From positions 1-33,974 of the forward strand of contig JAFVBP010000313.1 of NCBI GenBank assembly GCA_017479925.1: a stretch of 33,974 bases of DNA, in the 5' to 3' direction. Below, one piece after another: positions 9,420-32,700 of the stretch. The stretch comes from Selenomonadaceae bacterium (lineage in GTDB: Bacteria > Bacillota > Negativicutes > Selenomonadales > Selenomonadaceae). Position 1 is the stretch's first letter, and every line of letters starts with the position of its first letter. The notes beneath the pieces are model-generated. The model was not told the origin of the DNA, did no database searches, and saw only the letters and a program-made list of their open reading frames with translations. The translations under genes were made by a program, and so were the position numbers.

Positions 9420-10931
9420 ATGGCGACACGAGTCAAAAACAATCTCGGTGCAGTCCGTTCGCTCAACACGCTAAACAAAAATTCGCGGGCGGCGCAGAAA
9501 AATCTTCGCAAGGTTGCCACGGGCGAAAAAATCACGTCCGCCGCAGACGACGCCTCCGCTTGGGGCATTTCCGAACGCATGCGCGAAAAAATTCGTTCGC
9601 TCGACCAGGCGAATCAAAACACGCAAAACGATTTGGCTATGATGAACACCGCCGAAGAAGCCGTTGCCAACATCGTCGACATTTTGCGCACGCTCAAGCA
9701 AAAGGCGATTGACTCCGCCAACGACAGCAACACCGACGAAGACCGCCGAATCATGCAGAAAGAAGTTGACCAGCTGATTGACCAAATCGACGACAACGCG
9801 CTTGTCACCTTCAACGGCAAGTTTCTCGTCAACGGGCAGATGAGCGGCTTAACTAAAAACCTTATGTCCGTGTGGGTCTGCAACGGACTGGAAGCTCCGC
9901 CGCACGGATATTCTTCTGAACATTATATGCTCACAAAGATTACCGACCTAAAAGATCGCGACGGTGCCTCGCTTCAAATCCAATCAAGCGACAAAATGAT
10001 GTTCACGTGGACGCTGGACGGGAAAACCATGTCAACTATAACAACCGTCGGCAATGACAGCGATTCCACCTTACATTTTAAAATCATGCGTTGTGGGAAC
10101 CATGAAGTTTATCGTTACACCGGAACCCCTGGGGATCCATACGCTTTGACGGCACGTTGGGCCGCGTTCAACACAGTGGACGCAGACCCTGGCACCGGCT
10201 TTCCCGGCGGCTACGTCTTATGGCATGATAACAACTTCGATTTCAGTAGTCATAACGCCGGATGTGTTCCTTTGACTTTTATTAATAACCCTTACGCCTA
10301 CGCGATAACCGACCGTGAAGGCAAAGTGCTTCGCGTTCCGAATCCCGAAGATCATCCGTTCGTCGTCGCCGCTTTTAATGAGATCAGCTTGTCAAGCTTT
10401 AAAATCACCGTCATGGACGAAGGCGGACATATCAACGAACACGCGACCAATGCGTTAAGATTCGAGTTGCTTCAACGCGGCGAAAGTTCTTCAAGTAGTG
10501 ACGGGGGGGGGTTGGCATCTACTGCGGCAACTTTTCACGTCGGCGCGGGCGCGAATCAATCGATAACCGTCGGCTTGAGCGACATGCGCGCTTCGGCTCT
10601 CGGACTCAAAAGCAAAGACGGCGCGAATACAATCAGCATATTGACCCGCGACGATGCACTTGTTGCAATCGACGTATTCGACGGTGCGATTAAAGGTGCC
10701 CTTGACCAGTTGACCTCAATCGGCGCGGTTGAGGCTCGACTCGAATACACAATCGGAAATATCGACACGTCGACCGAAAATGTGCAGGCGTCCGAATCGA
10801 CAATCCGCGATGCCGACATGGCACGTGAGATGACAGCTTACACCCGCGACAACATTTTGACACAGGCGGCGCAAGCAATGTTGGCTCAAGCGAATCAAGA
10901 TGCGTCGTCGATACTCGGCTTGCTGTCGTAA
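9420..10931 (+). CDS. fliC: Flagellin with large variable central domain
   Basis: A 503-residue flagellin, the filament subunit. The conserved N-terminal D0/D1 helices (1-140; SAADDASAWGISERMREKIRSL) and C-terminal helices (about 380-503; ENVQASESTIRDADMAREM and a final SILGLLS) are typical. Residues about 145-375 are a variable surface domain whose base and codon use differs from the ends. It carries three cysteines (VCNG, RCGN, AGCV), rare in flagellins. A run of nine G (10503-10511), coding Gly362-364, interrupts the coding sequence; a one-base slip would truncate the protein before the C-terminal D1/D0. AAGGAGG precedes ATG 9420. No other flagellar gene is adjacent, so it is an orphan filament locus with a strong promoter and terminator. 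Confidence 0.95.
   Translation: MATRVKNNLGAVRSLNTLNKNSRAAQKNLRKVATGEKITSAADDASAWGISERMREKIRSLDQANQNTQNDLAMMNTAEEAVANIVDILRTLKQKAIDSANDSNTDEDRRIMQKEVDQLIDQIDDNALVTFNGKFLVNGQMSGLTKNLMSVWVCNGLEAPPHGYSSEHYMLTKITDLKDRDGASLQIQSSDKMMFTWTLDGKTMSTITTVGNDSDSTLHFKIMRCGNHEVYRYTGTPGDPYALTARWAAFNTVDADPGTGFPGGYVLWHDNNFDFSSHNAGCVPLTFINNPYAYAITDREGKVLRVPNPEDHPFVVAAFNEISLSSFKITVMDEGGHINEHATNALRFELLQRGESSSSSDGGGLASTAATFHVGAGANQSITVGLSDMRASALGLKSKDGANTISILTRDDALVAIDVFDGAIKGALDQLTSIGAVEARLEYTIGNIDTSTENVQASESTIRDADMAREMTAYTRDNILTQAAQAMLAQANQDASSILGLLS
10503..10511 (+). repeat. G9 homopolymer inside flagellin
   Basis: Nine consecutive G encode Gly-Gly-Gly. Loss of one G leads to a stop after about 20 codons, and gain of one G leads to a stop about 55 codons on. 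It is a candidate slipped-strand phase-variation tract, or a place where a sequencing length error would be likely. Confidence 0.7.
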
Positions 10932-24351: not shown

Positions 24352-24411
24352 CAGCTTGACTCCGTAAAAGCAATGTGGAATTAAACCGCGTCATTGAGTT
24401 AAAACTGTCGA

Positions 24412-24441
24412 ATGATAGCATGACAACGCGACGGTCGTCAA
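24412..24441 (-). promoter_or_regulatory. pyrKD promoter
   Basis: On the minus strand TTGACG (24436-24441) and TATCAT (24412-24417) are 18 bp apart, with TG one base before the -10 box. It is about 60 nt upstream of pyrK. Confidence 0.6.
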
Positions 24442-24496
24442 TTCGCCGCAATGGTGAACTTACGGCTGTGACACGAAAGATTAACTTTTCGCGCCG

Positions 24497-24525
24497 TTGC
24501 AAAGCAGTTGTAATTAATTTATAAT
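24497..24525 (+). promoter_or_regulatory. Promoter of the sugar-binding protein / cyclase operon
   Basis: TTGCAA (24497-24502) and a perfect TATAAT (24520-24525) with a 17-bp spacer, about 30 nt before the Shine-Dalgarno of the 24571 gene. Confidence 0.75.
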
Positions 24526-24570
24526 CCGTGCGAAACGGTTGTAAGTTGTTGCGTGCGGAGGTCGTTTGAA

Positions 24571-25542
24571 ATGAAAGCCAAGCTCTTTTTGAAAGTCGGC
24601 GTCCTGTTTGCCTTGTTGACGATTTTTTTCTGCGGCTGTTCGGAAACGCCCGACATTGTGGTTATCGAAGATTCGGCGCAGAAGAAATCGACAAATTTGC
24701 CCGCCGACAAAAGCGAATATAAAATTTACCTGATCACAATGGATTTGGCGGACGATTTTTGGAAGTCGATAGATTCGGGCTGTCGCAAGGCTGTCGCTGA
24801 ATTCGGCGGCATCGATTACAAGTGGATTGGTCCCGACGTCAACGAAGACCTGCCGCAAAGACGTTGCATTGAACAGGCAGTCGACGAAGGCGCGGATGCC
24901 ATTTTGCTTGCGGCAAGTTCGCCCGCCGGTGTCAACGAAAGTTTGCAAAAAGCCGCCAAAGCCGGCGTCAAAATAATTTACGTGGACAATGCCGCCGAAT
25001 TTGATTGCGTGGCGTTTTTGGCGACAGACAACGAATTGGCGGGCATGATTGCCGGCGAAACGATGAAAACCGCGCTGGTTGAGTCGCGAATTTTTTCGGG
25101 CAAAATCGGCTTGATGGTCAACAAAGACAACGTTACGAGTACCGCGCTGAGAGTCAAAGGCTTCCGCAAAGTTTTCGAAGGCACGGACTTTTACCTCGAC
25201 AAAACTTTTTTCATGGAAGACGACCCGCAACGCATAAAAACTTTCGTGAGCGAACATCCCGATTACGTTGCATTTTTCGGCTCGAATGAACGCACGGCTT
25301 TGGCATTGGGCGAACAAATGCGCGATTCCGGCTCCAAACAACTCGTTGTCGGCTTCGACACTTCCGACGCGGTTTTGGCTTTGCTTTATGACGGCGTCAT
25401 TTACGCCACCTTGCAACAGAAACCGCAAGTCATGGGCTACGACGGCATCAAAATCGCGCTTGAGGCGTTGAAAGGCACTTACAGCGGCAAAAGCGGCTTG
25501 ATCGATACCGGCGTCAAAGTTCTCTATAAAAATTCGATATAG
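24571..25542 (+). CDS. Periplasmic sugar-binding lipoprotein (RbsB/Peripla_BP_4-like)
   Basis: A 323-residue substrate-binding protein. The N-terminal signal (MKAKLFLKVGVLFALLTIFF) ends in a probable lipobox at Cys23 (FCGC). The mature part has the two-lobed type I pattern: KIYLITMDLADDFWKSIDSGCRKA, then AVDEGADAILLAASSPAG, then VDNAAEFDCVAFLATDNELAG, then the second-lobe VGFDTSDAVLALLYDGVIYATLQQKPQVMGYDGIKIALEAL. It probably binds a pentose or hexose outside the inner membrane. No permease or ATPase gene follows; instead a Cache-GGDEF cyclase begins 9 nt later, so a sensing role is suggested. ATG 24571 has GGAGG 9 nt upstream. Confidence 0.92.
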   Translation: MKAKLFLKVGVLFALLTIFFCGCSETPDIVVIEDSAQKKSTNLPADKSEYKIYLITMDLADDFWKSIDSGCRKAVAEFGGIDYKWIGPDVNEDLPQRRCIEQAVDEGADAILLAASSPAGVNESLQKAAKAGVKIIYVDNAAEFDCVAFLATDNELAGMIAGETMKTALVESRIFSGKIGLMVNKDNVTSTALRVKGFRKVFEGTDFYLDKTFFMEDDPQRIKTFVSEHPDYVAFFGSNERTALALGEQMRDSGSKQLVVGFDTSDAVLALLYDGVIYATLQQKPQVMGYDGIKIALEALKGTYSGKSGLIDTGVKVLYKNSI

Positions 25543-25551
25543 GTGAGCGCC

Positions 25552-26709
25552 ATGAAGTACAGCACGAAACTTTTAATCGCCAACTGCATACCGATTTTGG
25601 TTTTCGCGACGATTTCGCTGATTATCGGCTTCATGCAATTTCGCGCCAATCTCTACGACGAAAAGCAAGCTAATTTGAAGTCGACGGCTTTGGCGGCAAT
25701 GGCGTTGTACTCCAGTCACGGCTATGGCGATTACGGCAGGAAAGCCGACGGAAACATTTGGCGCGGCATGAATTTCAACGTGTCCGAAGAAACTTCCGTC
25801 GTCGACGACCTGAAACAACAGACCAATGTTGACGTGACGTTTTTTTTCGGTGACGCGGCGGCAATGACTTCGATTAAAAATCAAGATGACGTTCGCGCCG
25901 TCGACACGAATGCGCTTGACCACATCAAAAATTTCACCTTGGCTCACGGCGCACAACTTTGGTGCCGAAGCATCAAAATCAACGGGCGGACTTGTCAAGC
26001 TTACGTCATACCGATTCGGCAGGAGAGCGACAATGCCGTCGTCGGTGCGCTTATGACTTCGCAATCAATGAGCGGCTTTAATCGAATAATTGAAAATTAC
26101 ATTTTGACCACGGCAGTCACCGCGCTGGTGATTTTGTTCGCGGCTTTTTTGTTTATCCGCTGGTACGTCGCCCGTTTCTCGCAAGAATTCTACGACGCGA
26201 CGAACAAAAGCAAGCACGACCTGTTGACGGGGCTTTTAAACAAGCGTTCTTTCGAGGATGAAGTCAAAGCCGCCATTGCAAACAAAAAGCCGACTGATGT
26301 GTCCGTTTTGCTGATTTTGGACTTTGACAACTTCAAGCATGTCAACGACCATTACGGACATCAAATCGGCGACGAAGTTTTAAAAGCGTTCGGGCTGATT
26401 TTGGAACGCGCTTTCCGAACCAAAGACATTATCGGGCGTGTCGGCGGCGATGAATTTATGGTTTTCATGCCCGACATGACTGCGGAGTTTTTGCGTCGTT
26501 CGGAAGAAATTTCGCGTGAAATTTTGCATGAGCTGGCGGTCTTGAAAGTCGGCAAGGCTGAACATTTTTCCTGCAGTATCGGCATTGGCACCGACGCGGG
26601 CAATTACGACTTCAAGAAACTTTACCGTTTGGCGGACAAAGCACTTTACGAGTCGAAGGAACGCGGCAAAGCTTGCTTCGTTCGATTCTCTTCCGACGAA
26701 GTGCACGAT
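25552..26709 (+). CDS. Membrane diguanylate cyclase with periplasmic Cache-like sensor
   Basis: A 386-residue protein ending at the TAA at 26710-26712. TM1 is at about 8-29, a periplasmic domain at 30-180 has the single-Cache pattern (LKQQTNVDVTFFFGDAAAMTS, YVIPIRQESDNAVVGALM), and TM2 is at about 182-204. There is no HAMP. The C-terminal domain makes c-di-GMP from two GTP: the active site GGDEF is at 298-302, and the product-inhibition I-site RTKD (289-292) lies exactly five residues before it, so it looks active and feedback-controlled. ATG 25552 has AGGTG 6 nt upstream. It is co-transcribed with the binding lipoprotein, which may dock on its periplasmic domain. Its stop overlaps the stop of the converging gene. 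Confidence 0.95.
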
Positions 26710-27734
26710 TAACGGAAGTCTTTGACGATGTCGACGTTCGTGCTGTCGACGATAATCGGAATGCACAGGTACGACGGAATTGTCTTTACGTCGTTGCGGA
26801 TGTTTGTCACGTCGTTGATTGCGGGTTGGCTGCCTTCGACGACGGCTTTAACCATGCGAACAATTTTGCCGCAGAGAATTTCGGGGTCTTTGTAAATCGT
26901 CATTGACTGCTTGCCGGCTTTGATGTTCGCGATACCGTTGGCACCGGCGTCCTGCCCCGTCAAAATTGTCGGCGTGCCTTTGTAACCGACGCTTTCTTGA
27001 GCGCGAATCAAAGCTTCCGCCAAGTCGTCATTTGCCGCGACAACGACGTTAAGCGACTTGCCGTCCGCGTAATATTTCTGCAGAATTTCGGTCATGCGGC
27101 GTTGAGCGTTGTCGGGCTTCCAACCGTCGGTTGCCACGGATTGAAAATCTTTTTGCCCCGAAGGAACGACGAGTTGTCCTTTGTCAATGTACGGCTTCAG
27201 GTAATTGAAAGCCCCGTTGAAAAACAGCGGCGCGTTGGTGTCGTCGGGCGAACCGGCGATAAATTCTATCGTGAAAGGTCCCGCGCCGTTTTTGAGACCG
27301 AGTTTTTCCTCGACGTAACGCGCTTGAAATTCACCGACCGAATTGTTTTCGAACGATGCGTAATACGAAATGGCGTCGGTGTGCATAATCAACCTGTCGT
27401 AAGCAATGACGGGTATATTTTTTTCTTTGGCAAGAGTGAGCGGCTCGCCCAAAGCGTTGGCGTCCTGTGCGCCGATGACTATCGCGGCGGGATTTTTTTC
27501 GACGGCGGCTTTAAGCTGTTCGACTTGTTCGGCGGCGTTGGTGCAGTGGTGAAGTTCAACTTCGTAATTGGCTTCGCGCATGAGTTGGGCGCAAAGTTGA
27601 CCGATATATTTCCAAATGCCGCTGTCGGGATTCGGGAACAAAAGTTGCACGGTGCTTTTGGAATTGCCTTCGTCCGCGCAACCGCTCAAAACGACGCAAA
27701 AAGCAAGACACAAGCTCAAGAAAATTTTTCGCAC
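26709..27734 (-). CDS. ChvE/XylF-like sugar-binding lipoprotein
   Basis: A 341-residue periplasmic binding protein. GTG 27734 (GAGGTG 6 nt upstream) gives a lipoprotein signal with lipobox LSGC (Cys19); the longer frame to 27890 overlaps the receptor gene. The mature part follows multiple-sugar/xylose-binding proteins: AAIVIGAQDANALGEPL, the hallmark VIAYDRLIMHTDAISYYASF, and the second-lobe VVAANDDLAEALI followed by TGQDA. In Agrobacterium ChvE binds monosaccharides and signals through membrane receptors. Here the gene follows a chemoreceptor gene after 10 nt and no transporter genes are present, suggesting a chemotaxis co-receptor. Its stop overlaps by 2-3 nt that of the cyclase gene (TTAA at 26709-26712). 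Confidence 0.93.
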   Translation of the reverse strand: MRKIFLSLCLAFCVVLSGCADEGNSKSTVQLLFPNPDSGIWKYIGQLCAQLMREANYEVELHHCTNAAEQVEQLKAAVEKNPAAIVIGAQDANALGEPLTLAKEKNIPVIAYDRLIMHTDAISYYASFENNSVGEFQARYVEEKLGLKNGAGPFTIEFIAGSPDDTNAPLFFNGAFNYLKPYIDKGQLVVPSGQKDFQSVATDGWKPDNAQRRMTEILQKYYADGKSLNVVVAANDDLAEALIRAQESVGYKGTPTILTGQDAGANGIANIKAGKQSMTIYKDPEILCGKIVRMVKAVVEGSQPAINDVTNIRNDVKTIPSYLCIPIIVDSTNVDIVKDFR

Positions 27735-27744
27735 GATAAACACC

Positions 27745-29442
27745 TCACAACTTGAACATGGCAGTCGAATCCTGCAACTTTTGCGCCATGTCGGACATAT
27801 TTTTACTTGCGCCGGCGATTTCGTCCATTGATGCCGAAAGTTGTTGTGTCGCGGCGGAAACGGATTCGGCTTCCTGCGAAACTGCGGCACTGGTTTTGTT
27901 CAATTCGTCCATGACGGCGACGAGTTTGTTGATTTTTTCGGCGGAGGAACGGGCGGCGCGCAAAATAATTTCGGCGTTTTCGGTAAGACCGATTACGGCT
28001 TTGACGATTGTGCCGAAGGAATTGCCCGCCTTGTCAACGACGCTTTTTCCGCTTTGAACGTCGAGCGTGCCTTGCTCCATGCGTTCAACGGCCTTGGTCG
28101 TGTCGCTTTGAATGACGCGAATCAAGTCGGCAATTTGAGCGGCAGCTAACGCTGAACCTTCGGCAAGCTTGCGAACTTCGTCGGCGACAACCGCAAAGCC
28201 GCGACCGTGTTCGCCCGCACGAGCCGCTTCTATTGCCGCGTTCAACGCCAAAAGATTGGTTTGTTCGGCAATGCCCGAAATTGTGTCGGAAATGTTGCTG
28301 ATTTCTTCGGAACGCGCCGCAAGTTGACGAATCACTTCGGCGGATTCGGTGACGGACTCGGCTATCGTTTCCATTTGCGAAATTGCTTCGGAAACGGCTG
28401 TGCGCCCGTTTTGAGCAATGTCGGCAACGTCGTGCGCGGCTTTGGAAGATTGTTCCGACAGCTTTTCAAACGCGGCAATGTCGTTGGTCATGTCGTTTAT
28501 TTCGCGCACGGAAGAATTCACCTGTTCGCCTTGATTGGTCATGTTGAAGGCGACGTTGCTTATCGAGTTGGCGACTTGTTGCGTTGCTTGCGCGGACTGA
28601 TCGGCGTTTGAAGTCAACTGGTCGGAAAACGTCACCAAATTTTCCGCGGTTGAAGTAATGCCCTTGATTAAACCTTTGAGTTGCGTGACGGTTTCGGCAA
28701 AAGCTTTGGTGAGCATACCGAATTCGTCTTTCGTTTTGGGCGTGACGTCCGCCGTCAAATTGCCCTGCGCAATGTTTTCGGCAATTTCGATGAGGTAGCG
28801 AATCGAAGTGTTTATCGAGCGGCTCAAGTAAAACGCCATTGTCACGGAAATCAAAATGACGACAAGCACCGACGCAATCAAAATAAATTTCGTTCGATCG
28901 TATTCGGCTTCGGCGGCGACGGTTTCGGCGTGTATGAAATCTTTGCGGGCGTCAATGACTTTGACGAGCAAATTATCGAGTTCTTCAAACTGATTCAACG
29001 AGTTGTCAAGAATCAAAGCCGCCTGTGCCGATTGATTGTTGTTCGACATATCAACGATATTGTTCAGCTGACTTCTGTACGCTGACCACTTTTGCCGCAA
29101 CGAAGTAAGATTCGAGTCAAGGTTGCCCTGCAAACTTTTTTCCAGCGTGTCAAACGTAATGTCGATTTGGTCGGCAAGTTTGACGGCTTTTTTTTCGGCG
29201 TAAGAGCGACTGATTAAATTCGGCGCGGTGACGATTGAATATTCCAGTTGCCGATATTGCTCCATTGCCTTGCCGTTGTCGTTTGCGACAAGCACGCTGA
29301 GCAGGTGAGTTGTGGCGATTCGCATTGCGCCTTCGTTTATCTTGTTGAGCGCGTACGCCGAATAAACGCTGACCGAAACAAAGACCAAAATCAACGCGAC
29401 GAAAATTAAGTTGAGTTTTTGGCGGATGGTTAAACCGTTCAA
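27745..29442 (-). CDS. Methyl-accepting chemotaxis protein
   Basis: A 565-residue chemoreceptor. TM1 is at 9-31, a helical four-helix-bundle type periplasmic domain at about 32-185, TM2 at 186-206, HAMP at about 207-260, and the cytoplasmic signalling helices to the C-terminus. The conserved hairpin tip that contacts CheA and CheW is [20 protein letters not shown] followed by [16 protein letters not shown]. There is no C-terminal CheR-binding pentapeptide. The start is TTG 29442 with GGAGG 9 nt upstream. It is co-transcribed with the ChvE-like lipoprotein gene, its likely periplasmic partner, because a 4HB domain can sense either small ligands or binding proteins. Confidence 0.95.
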
Positions 29443-29496
29443 GTGAATTCGCCTCCTTGAAGTTGCCCGATTGTAAATGTTTATTTCTGCGGAAGA

Positions 29497-29525
29497 ATTA
29501 TCACATGCTTTATCGACAAAAGCAA
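29497..29525 (-). promoter_or_regulatory. Promoter of the chemoreceptor operon
   Basis: On the minus strand TTGCTT (29520-29525) and GATAAT (29497-29502) are 17 bp apart with TG one base before the -10 box. A GTCGATAA word resembling a sigma-28 -10 is nearby, but no correctly spaced -35 was found. Confidence 0.45.
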
Positions 29526-29586
29526 GCAGTAATGCGTTTCATTTGAACGCAAGCAAGCGTAAATTGTCGAGACGAATCACGCGAAA

Positions 29587-29668
29587 AAAAATCCCGCACT
29601 CGTTGAAGCCGCCGCCGAAAAATTCAATTTCGGTGATTATGCAGACTTGAGCGAATGCGGGAATGTCG
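29587..29668 (-). terminator. Large branched terminator after carB
   Basis: On the minus strand CCCGCATTCG and CGAGTGCGGG form a 10-bp stem (one G-U) enclosing about 55 nt. That interval contains a second hairpin with CCGAAA and TTTCGG arms. Eight T follow the outer stem. The size is unusual for an intrinsic terminator. The rest of 29443-29700 holds only the receptor promoter. Confidence 0.6.
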
Positions 29669-29700
29669 CGTGCCCGACGAAATAAATTTCTACTTGCAGT

Positions 29701-32700
29701 TCATGCCAGAGCGTCACCGCCGCCGACGTAATCTTGAATCGCCAGCGAATAGACAAGTCGACGGTCACGCATGAAGGTCAACACGCGCATGACTTCCCAA
29801 GCGGTGTCCAAACTTGTGAAGCAGGGCACGCCCAATTCGACGGTGGCGCGACGAATGCGGAAGCCGTCTTTGGCGACGTGTTTGCCGGGTGCCTGCGTAT
29901 TGATAACCATGTGAATCTTGCCGAGCTTAATCATTTGGATGATGTCGGAGCTGCGTTGGTGCACTTTGCCGACAACTTCAGCGTTAATGCCGATTGACTG
30001 CAGAGCGCGTGCGGTGCCTTCGGTGGCGACGATTTTAAAGCCGAGTTCGGAAAACGCTTTGGCAAGTTGTTTCATTTCGTCTTTGTCTTTGTCGGCGACG
30101 GTGAACAGAATGCAACCGTTTTTCGGGATGACGATACCCGCGCCCGTAATCGCCTTGTACAGCGCACGAGCGTAGTGGTAATCGATGCCCATGACTTCGC
30201 CCGTCGACTTCATTTCGGGACCGAGCGAAATGTCAACGTCCTGCATCTTCGCGAACGAAAACACGGGAGCTTTGACCGCGACATAAGGTTTCGGCTCAAC
30301 CAGACCCGAATAGTAGCCCATTTCGCGCAGAGTTTTGCCGAGAGCCGCACGCGTCGCGACGTTGACCATTTTAATATCGGTGACTTTGCTCAAAAACGGA
30401 ACCGTGCGACTTGAACGCGGATTGACTTCGATAACGTAAACTTTGCCTTCCGCAACGACATATTGAATGTTGAGCAGACCTTTGACGTGCAGGGCAAGCG
30501 CAAGCCGTTTCGTGTAGTCGGTTATCGTGTAAATCGTTTTCGACGGCAAGGTTTGCGGCGGATACACGGCGATTGAGTCACCGCTGTGAACACCTGCGCG
30601 TTCGACGTGTTCCATAATGCCGGGAATTACAACGTCAACGCCGTCGGAAATGGCGTCAACTTCGACTTCCGTGCCCTGCATGTACCTGTCGACAAGCACG
30701 GGATGATCGGGCGTGACTTTGACGGCGCGGCTCATGTAGTCGCGGAGTTCTTCCTCGTTGTAGACGATTTCCATTGCACGGCCGCCCAAAACGTAACTCG
30801 GACGAACCATGACGGGATAGCCGATTTCAGCGGCACCGTTAATCGCGTCGTCCAAATTCGTGACGGAAATTCCACGCGGTCGGGGAATGTTTAACTCGGT
30901 CAACATTTCGTCGAAACGTTCGCGGTCTTCGGCGCGGTCAATGTCGTCAACGCTCGTGCCGAAAATTTTCACGCCCGCTTCAGCCAAAGACGCCGACAAG
31001 TTAATCGCGGTTTGTCCGCCGAATTGCACGATGACGCCTTCGGGCTTTTCCTTGTCGACGATGTTCAAAACGTCTTCGGTCGTGAGCGGCTCGAAATAAA
31101 GTTTGTCGGAGATGTCAAAGTCCGTCGACACGGTTTCGGGGTTGTTGTTGATGATAATCGCCTCGATGCCCGCCTCACGCAGTGCCCAAACCGAATGCAC
31201 GGAGCAGTAATCGAATTCGACGCCTTGCCCGATGCGAATCGGACCGGAGCCAAGCACGATAATTTTGCGTTTGTCGCTGACGGTGACTTCGTCGACTTCG
31301 CCGCGATACGTCGAATAGTAGTAAGGCGTCATTGCCTCGAATTCCGCCGCGCAGGTGTCGACCATTTTGTACACGGGCACAATCCGATTTTGCTTGCGAA
31401 GGGCACGAACGTCGCGAACTTTCGTGTTCGTCAATTCAGCGATTGACACGTCCGACAAGCCGACAAGTTTCGCCTCGCGCAGAATTTTCGCGTTGAGTTC
31501 AGTTTTCGACAGGCGAACTTCCATGTCGGTGATGTTTTTGATTTTGTCGATAAACCAGCGGTCAATTTTCGTGATGTCGGCAATTTCCTGCGTCGTGGCG
31601 ATGTTGCGGCGAAGTGCCTCGGCAATCAAAAACAGTCGCTCGTCGTTGACGCGGTTCAAGCGGCTTTTGATTTTGTCGTCGTCCCAGTCGTCCATTTTGT
31701 CCATGTGCAGACGATTGACGCCGATTTCAAGACTGCGAACGGCTTTGAGAATCGCGCCTTCAAACGTGCGGTCAAGGCTCATGACTTCGCCCGTCGCCTT
31801 CATCTGCGTGCCCAAAGTTTTGTCGGCGTAAACGAATTTGTCGAACGGCCAGCGCGGGAACTTGACGACGATATAATCAACCGACGGCTCGAAACAAGCT
31901 TTGGTTTTCTTCGTGACGGCGTTGACAATCTCGTCAAGTTGGTAGCCTATGGCGATTTTGACGCTGACTTTCGCAATCGGGTAACCCGTCGCCTTCGACG
32001 CAAGCGCGGAACTTCTGCTGACACGCGGATTGACTTCGATGACGTAATAATCGTCGCTGTTCGGGTCGAGCGCGAATTGGATGTTGCAGCCGCCTTCGAT
32101 TTTGAGCGCACGAATAATTTTCAAGCTTGCCGAACGCAAAAGTTGATATTCGTGGTCGTTGAGCGTTTGAGTCGGAGCGACGACGATTGAATCGCCCGTG
32201 TGCACGCCGACGGGGTCGAAATTTTCCATTGAGCAAATCGTTATGCAGGTGTCGTTGGCGTCGCGCATGACTTCGTACTCGATTTCTTTCCAGCCGGCGA
32301 TTGAGCGTTCAATCAAAACTTGTCCGATCATTGAGTATTTCAAACCGCGCAGGGTCGTTTCGATGAGTTCTTCCTCGTTGTTGACGATGCCGCCGCCCGT
32401 GCCGCCGAGCGTGTACGCGGGTCGGACAATCAGCGGGTAACCGATTTCGTTTGCGAAGTCAACCGCGCTGTGAATATCTTCGACAATCGTCGATTCGGGT
32501 ATCGGTTCGCCGATTTGCTCCATGGTCTCTTTAAAAAGTTCGCGGTCTTCGGCGCGCTTGATGGCTTCAATCGACGTGCCCAAAAGTTCGACGTTGTTTT
32601 TGGCAAGCACGCCGCTTTCGGCAAGTTGAACTGCGAGATTCAAGCCCGCCTGTCCGCCGAGCGTCGCAAGCAAACCGTCGGGGCGTTCCTTTTCGATTAT

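Follow-up and report, generated by a model that had tools for sequence, protein, structure and literature searches.

Gating by substrate-binding proteins (SBPs) is known for chemoreceptors, kinases, and cyclic di-GMP (c-di-GMP) enzymes (PMC9602780). The closest described system with a c-di-GMP output is NspS-MbaA from Vibrio cholerae and Sinorhizobium meliloti (PMC8967002 and PMC9993111), in which the binding protein acts on the receptor and links an external compound to c-di-GMP. XylFII from Clostridium beijerinckii, a sugar SBP without an ATP-binding cassette (ABC) transporter, binds the extracellular part of its receptor LytS (5XSD, 5XSJ, and 5XSS), and CuaDSR (PMC10384115) is grouped with this system. 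In a review of c-di-GMP sensing, carbohydrate input was listed solely via the EIIA-Glc protein of the phosphotransferase system (PTS), and 1 of 27 families of the binding-protein clan had been studied in c-di-GMP networks (PMC8846402); our literature searches for pairs of a sugar SBP and a cyclase turned up only NspS-MbaA, EIIA-Glc/PdeS, and general reviews. Here, we analyzed a stretch of DNA of 33,974 nucleotides from a Selenomonadaceae bacterium (the whole of contig JAFVBP010000313.1, C92 in our numbering; referred to as the window), in which two sugar-class SBPs, SBP1 and SBP2, are paired with a membrane-bound diguanylate cyclase and a chemoreceptor, respectively.

We propose, with a probability of roughly 80%, that these are two independent, transporter-less signaling pairs gated by SBPs, and that SBP1 and the TM1-sCache-TM2 part of the cyclase (TM, transmembrane helix) constitute a portable input cassette. 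The source assembly, a metagenome-assembled genome of 2.82 Mb, showed completeness of 98.8% and contamination of 5.99%, and named Selenomonadaceae relatives came from the rumen.

Pairing of binding proteins and receptors

The two pairs were located at 24571-29442, between pyrK and carB, with no other gene inside the block: SBP1 (24571..25542) and the cyclase (25552..26712) on the plus strand, and the chemoreceptor (27745..29442) and SBP2 (26709..27734) on the minus strand. The stop codons of the convergent pairs overlapped (26710-26712 for the cyclase and 26709-26711 for SBP2). This layout, including the strands of all four genes and the lack of ABC genes alongside either pair, had been described in an earlier annotation made from the letters alone (referred to as the sequence-only reading) and was confirmed; its gene descriptions were accurate, except for the start codons of the cyclase and SBP2.

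The DNA around nearly all Peripla_BP_4 matches in 66 genomes of the genus was surveyed; neighboring genes were classed mechanically, and representative partner genes were checked with Pfam. The genomes compared were fragmented assemblies, in which the genes of relatives were also called mechanically. Among 132 distinct SBPs, 97 shared an operon with a gene for a methyl-accepting chemotaxis protein (MCP), a GGDEF protein, or a histidine kinase or response regulator (MCP, 48; GGDEF, 18; both, 1; kinase or regulator, 30). The ABC class comprised 6 of the 132 SBPs, to which may be added a handful that had no classed partner but lay in these ABC loci at wider spacing, giving about a dozen in all. 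The survey yielded 16 SBP1-cyclase pairs and 30 MCP-SBP2 pairs; since these pairs recurred with different flanking genes in many genomes, the pairing exceeded chance. When the genus was searched with the periplasmic part of the cyclase, 16 matches were obtained (57-100% identity, E<1e-55), all 16 beside an SBP1 gene, and the next-best sCache matches showed 27% identity or less, a two-peaked result. A further arrangement, an SBP gene flanked by genes for a YesM-like kinase and a response regulator of the AraC type, was found in about 11 genus loci (L165:2734-6727 and similar).

The recurrent pairs, together with the lack of a sugar ABC system (see below), agree with the earlier proposal that the two binding proteins have separate receptors and probably function in signaling, not transport. 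The ABC genes did not appear to have been lost in this genome alone from loci that normally carry them: close orthologs were without ABC genes wherever they were found, and ABC-borne relatives were more distant (under 50% identity for SBP1 and about 45% for SBP2).

The sequence-only reading had further joined the four genes into a single sugar-sensing module that coordinates swimming and settling, which would be held together by selection. The genes are contiguous and convergent in an otherwise empty block, and, in G016 and G080, the near form of the MCP-SBP2 unit is likewise adjacent to GGDEF genes, albeit of a different type, which brings the near loci with such a neighbor to 3 of 10 when the window is counted. 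However, the four-gene order was seen once among the genus genomes examined, in this window; the two pairs were on different contigs in G020, G019, G004, and G051; the majority of genomes carrying one pair were without the other; and the block was absent from the corresponding junction in two relatives (see below). A single module was, therefore, unsupported and is unlikely, and coordination of swimming and sessility by the four genes, or any cooperation between the pairs, would be a guess.

Exchange of the output domain

A scan based on the SBP1 alignment, with one genome per species and relying on two conserved peptides, yielded at least 65 loci. The gene after SBP1 encoded an sCache-GGDEF cyclase in Selenomonadaceae and an MCP in about 25 loci of Lachnospiraceae; the latter protein was composed of sCache_3_3 and MCPsignal (Pfam), and its gene was usually located 6-14 bp 3' of the SBP1 ortholog. 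In the hhalign comparison, the cyclases and Lachnospiraceae MCPs were aligned without a gap over 216 columns, from residue 1 through TM2, with 52% identity (E 3e-80). The alignment ended after TM2, and the proteins diverged just inside the membrane, at whose inner face the output is exchanged.

The periplasmic sCache part of the cyclase (25636..26112, plus strand), the proposed docking site of SBP1, is common to the Lachnospiraceae MCPs: it was 53% identical between the cyclase- and MCP-linked forms, and 62 of 159 positions were at least 90% conserved in both. Within the MCPs, the conservation of sCache was 74%, vs 67% for the signaling domain. Although the periplasmic domains of receptors usually drift fastest, docking to a co-inherited protein is expected to give such a conserved sCache, and contact with SBP1 is likely.

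In the SBP1 tree, cyclase-, MCP-, and ABC-linked proteins formed separate groups, and the two sensor groups were sisters, with the ABC group as the outgroup. About a dozen distant relatives of SBP1 (43-48% over the mature protein) were located within CUT2 ATPase-permease-SBP operons. The simplest history suggested by these sequences is that an ABC-borne SBP became a sensor, followed by one change of output. The first gene of these ABC operons (L329-L338) appeared to be degenerate and ABC-ATPase-like, ahead of an intact ATPase. Contigs L294 (Treponema) and L320 (Muribaculaceae) carried versions of these genes similar to the Selenomonadaceae or Blautia forms, and were probably mis-binned.

Since Cache and 4HB domains often bind ligands directly, the sCache and 4HB domains may recognize small ligands by themselves, with the SBPs as scavengers or accessories that raise the local concentration. 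This is rather improbable in view of the strict SBP1-sCache linkage across two bacterial families with different outputs, and of the sCache sequence having been kept despite the changed output.

SBP1 and its putative ligand

SBP1 is a sugar-binding lipoprotein (Peripla_BP_4, E 5.5e-40) with a lipoprotein-type signal peptide (lipobox Cys23 at 24637-24639), and is the proposed input of the cyclase. Its profile relatives in the PDB included glucose, ribose, and xylose binders and XylFII, and the best fold matches of its AlphaFold2 model (mean predicted local distance difference test score (pLDDT) of 86) were glucose, ribose, and xylose binders, GanP, and XylFII. The candidate pocket residues D139, R194, N239, D263, and Q283, which we take to be equivalent to the RbsB pocket, were invariant among orthologs. 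Both the sequence and model suggested that the ligand is most likely a monosaccharide.

Another possibility is that SBP1 reports a signal molecule, such as autoinducer 2 (AI-2), as LuxP does for LuxQ, and not a nutrient sugar. LuxP and LsrB share the SBP superfamily. AI-2 communication is a studied subject in rumen communities (PMC9540692). On the other hand, the nearest solved relatives of SBP1, by sequence and fold, bind glucose, ribose, xylose, and arabinose, and its ABC-borne relatives accompany a CUT2 sugar ATPase and permease, by which a signal molecule becomes a highly doubtful ligand.

A sigma-70-like promoter (TTGCAA-17-TATAAT; 24497..24525, plus strand) may be present 5' of SBP1; its position is suggestive, while comparable sites were no more numerous in the region than in shuffled sequence. 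In one locus (L325:109-4428), three SBP1 genes in tandem were followed by a single sCache-GGDEF cyclase.

Membrane-bound cyclase

The cyclase is a transmembrane protein with the order TM1-sCache_3_3-TM2-GGDEF (sCache_3_3, 7.5e-17; GGDEF, 2.8e-39). Its start codon is most likely ATG 25552, separated by 9 bp from the stop of SBP1 (25542), and not GTG 25543, because the orthologs begin with MKYST. A readthrough fusion of SBP1 and the cyclase through the abutting in-frame GTG 25543 was ruled out by the same methionine. As the sequence-only reading had noted, the I-site RTKD (RxxD; 26416..26427, plus strand) lies five residues ahead of the active-site motif GGDEF (26443..26457, plus strand); the sequence and alignment indicated that both motifs are kept in a complete GGDEF domain, and the protein is predicted to be an active diguanylate cyclase. 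No EAL domain was found in it by Pfam; three EAL proteins were encoded in the genome. The AlphaFold2 model of the cyclase, like that of SBP1, was confident (mean pLDDT of 84), and a fold search with it was uninformative on sCache, because the list was filled by the GGDEF domain.

SBP2 and its chemoreceptor

SBP2 is a ChvE-like sugar-binding lipoprotein (Peripla_BP_4, 1.5e-51; LSGC lipobox), the proposed input of the chemoreceptor, and most likely starts at GTG 27734. In comparison with ChvE (3URM), a value of 4.7e-68 was obtained over 309 residues of the mature protein, and the YDR, GSPDD, and GQDA motifs were kept. The chemoreceptor contained a periplasmic 4HB domain (4HB_MCP_1), HAMP, and MCPsignal with the conserved EAARAGE hairpin, in accordance with an MCP. 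The identity of 4HB tracked that of SBP2: 70-86% with near SBP2 (about 80%) and 32-42% with distant SBP2 (about 45%); the 4HB regions of other MCPs in MCP-SBP2 loci showed no similarity. In other families of the same class, the SBP2 family (about 43-45% identity) was found with a CUT2 ATPase and permease, and one such ABC operon (G039) included a gene read as L-arabinose isomerase. As judged from these sequences, MCP-SBP2 is an independent conserved pair, the SBP of which is derived from the ChvE/arabinose-type ABC family; due to this homology and these relatives, the ligand of SBP2 is likely a ChvE-type pentose or hexose.

No FliA-type promoter was found 5' of the MCP genes by a simple pattern. 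In L066:3734-9995 (G016) and L170:5214-9501 (G080), MCP-SBP2 adjoined a dCache-HAMP-GGDEF gene, with a DctP-type binding protein between them in G016. Five tandem SBP2-like genes were located around mnmE in L146:3489-10540 (G061), with no recognized receptor or transporter adjoining.

Sugar transport genes in the genome

This genome contained three Peripla_BP_4 genes. Its PF02653 permeases were limited to two neighboring genes of contig C308, interpreted as LivH/LivM of a branched-chain amino acid system, and a class-II (CUT2) sugar ABC permease of the PF02653 type was not detected in the genome. No CUT2-type two-domain sugar ATPase was found in it at E<=1e-30 among the best 22 of 40 candidates, which were those scored; this ATPase was present in only about 7-10 of the 66 genus genomes. 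Matching ABC genes of the sugar class, whether permease or ATPase, were, thus, not detected elsewhere in the genome. Although SBPs are sometimes encoded away from their permeases, continued transport through a permease encoded elsewhere is very improbable, given that no sugar-type PF02653 permease or CUT2 ATPase was found in a genome that is 98.8% complete.

Downstream of the third Peripla_BP_4 SBP (contig C63; L063:7011-12330) were a HisKA_3 kinase and a NarL-type regulator, and PTS genes of the sorbose family lay ahead of it; this locus is likely an SBP-PTS three-component system. The same arrangement was repeated in about 19 genus loci. The three SBPs adjoin three outputs (cyclase, chemoreceptor, and two-component system), and each sugar-class SBP of this genome, therefore, has a different signaling partner.

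Genomic context of the block

Nothing corresponding to the block (24359..29685) was present at the carB-pyrK junction in G021 or G016: nucleotide homology stopped at 24358 and 29686-29701. This junction was 83 bp in G016, contained a small BrnT-type toxin gene and a short downstream open reading frame in G021 (L256:1024-1501, compared with 24358-29701), and carried the 5.3-kb block in the window. Around the block, tRNA genes and repeats were looked for as marks of insertion, and none was clear. A flagellin gene (Flagellin_N and Flagellin_C) was also found within the window (9420-10931, plus strand), which fits a swimming organism.

Discussion

In pair A, a ligand from outside the cytoplasm, most likely a monosaccharide, would be bound by the lipoprotein SBP1, which would dock on the sCache of the membrane-bound cyclase; this docking would alter c-di-GMP synthesis via TM2, whichever sign the response may have. 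In pair B, the ChvE-like SBP2 would bind a ligand that is probably a pentose or hexose, such as arabinose, galactose, or xylose, and bias swimming by docking on the 4HB domain of its receptor. In Lachnospiraceae, the same input is joined to a chemotaxis signaling domain instead.

Several results weigh against this proposal. About 20 SBPs of the genus had no classed partner, and a few relatives of SBP1 (L061, L062, and L223) were without a cyclase. A PilZ effector (PF07238) was not found in the genome. Direct binding of a small ligand to sCache could also account for how strongly this domain is conserved. In a mirror-tree analysis, every receptor segment correlated with SBP1 at about 0.8-0.9, and the periplasmic part was not favored; since the correlations were alike for all segments, contact between SBP1 and sCache was not proven by co-variation alone, and this analysis was dropped as proof.

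More broadly, it is somewhat probable that, in a rumen lineage of Selenomonadaceae, class-I sugar-binding proteins changed almost entirely from a role in uptake to one in sensing, with SBP1 as one half of a transferable cassette whose output was switched between c-di-GMP synthesis and chemotaxis in different families. The annotation "sugar ABC transporter substrate-binding protein" needs caution in this genus, in which such proteins are mostly sensors. If our proposal is correct, the cyclase form represents a direct route linking extracellular sugar to c-di-GMP by way of a separate binding protein, of which no description was met in the literature searched, and the action of a sugar SBP on a cyclase would close a gap in the known c-di-GMP inputs. 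The exchangeable input cassette appears to be the surprising part, as SBP-gated receptors themselves are already known. In this natural exchange of output, one SBP-sCache combination should be able to drive either c-di-GMP or chemotaxis, and the input mechanism is directly testable.

Comparison with known systems

The precedents given in the sequence-only reading (ChvE-VirA, RbsB-Trg, and LuxP-LuxQ) hold for signaling from an SBP to a receptor, but the closest one for c-di-GMP, NspS-MbaA, had been omitted. In Escherichia coli, the sugar SBPs RbsB and MglB act on Trg, a chemoreceptor of the 4HB type; they also feed an ABC transporter, whereas MCP-SBP2 forms its own operon and no sugar ABC system was found. 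SBP2 is a homolog of ChvE from Agrobacterium (3URM), but its neighbor is a chemoreceptor and not an ABC partner or VirA-like kinase; a GguAB-type transporter for SBP2 was not found in the genome, and no search was aimed at VirA. LuxP-LuxQ resembles pair A in the combination of an SBP with a Cache/PAS-type periplasmic receptor domain, while LuxQ is a hybrid histidine kinase with AI-2 as the ligand, in contrast to the GGDEF output of the cyclase. XylFII is a relative of SBP1 in sequence and fold; however, the output of XylFII-LytS and CuaDSR is a histidine kinase, which matches the third SBP of this genome (C63) and not the pairs in the window.

NspS-MbaA and SBP1-cyclase share a transporter-less binding protein gene directly 5' of the gene for a membrane GGDEF receptor, and the same action of the binding protein on the receptor is proposed. 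On the other hand, NspS is a polyamine binder of the PotD type, whereas SBP1 belongs to the Peripla_BP_4 sugar class; MbaA is a GGDEF-EAL protein, whereas the cyclase has a single sCache as the periplasmic domain, GGDEF, and no EAL; and, unlike NspS-MbaA, the SBP1/sCache input is also found with an MCP output. SBP1-cyclase, therefore, appears to work like NspS-MbaA, but is not a member of that system because of its different SBP family and lack of EAL.

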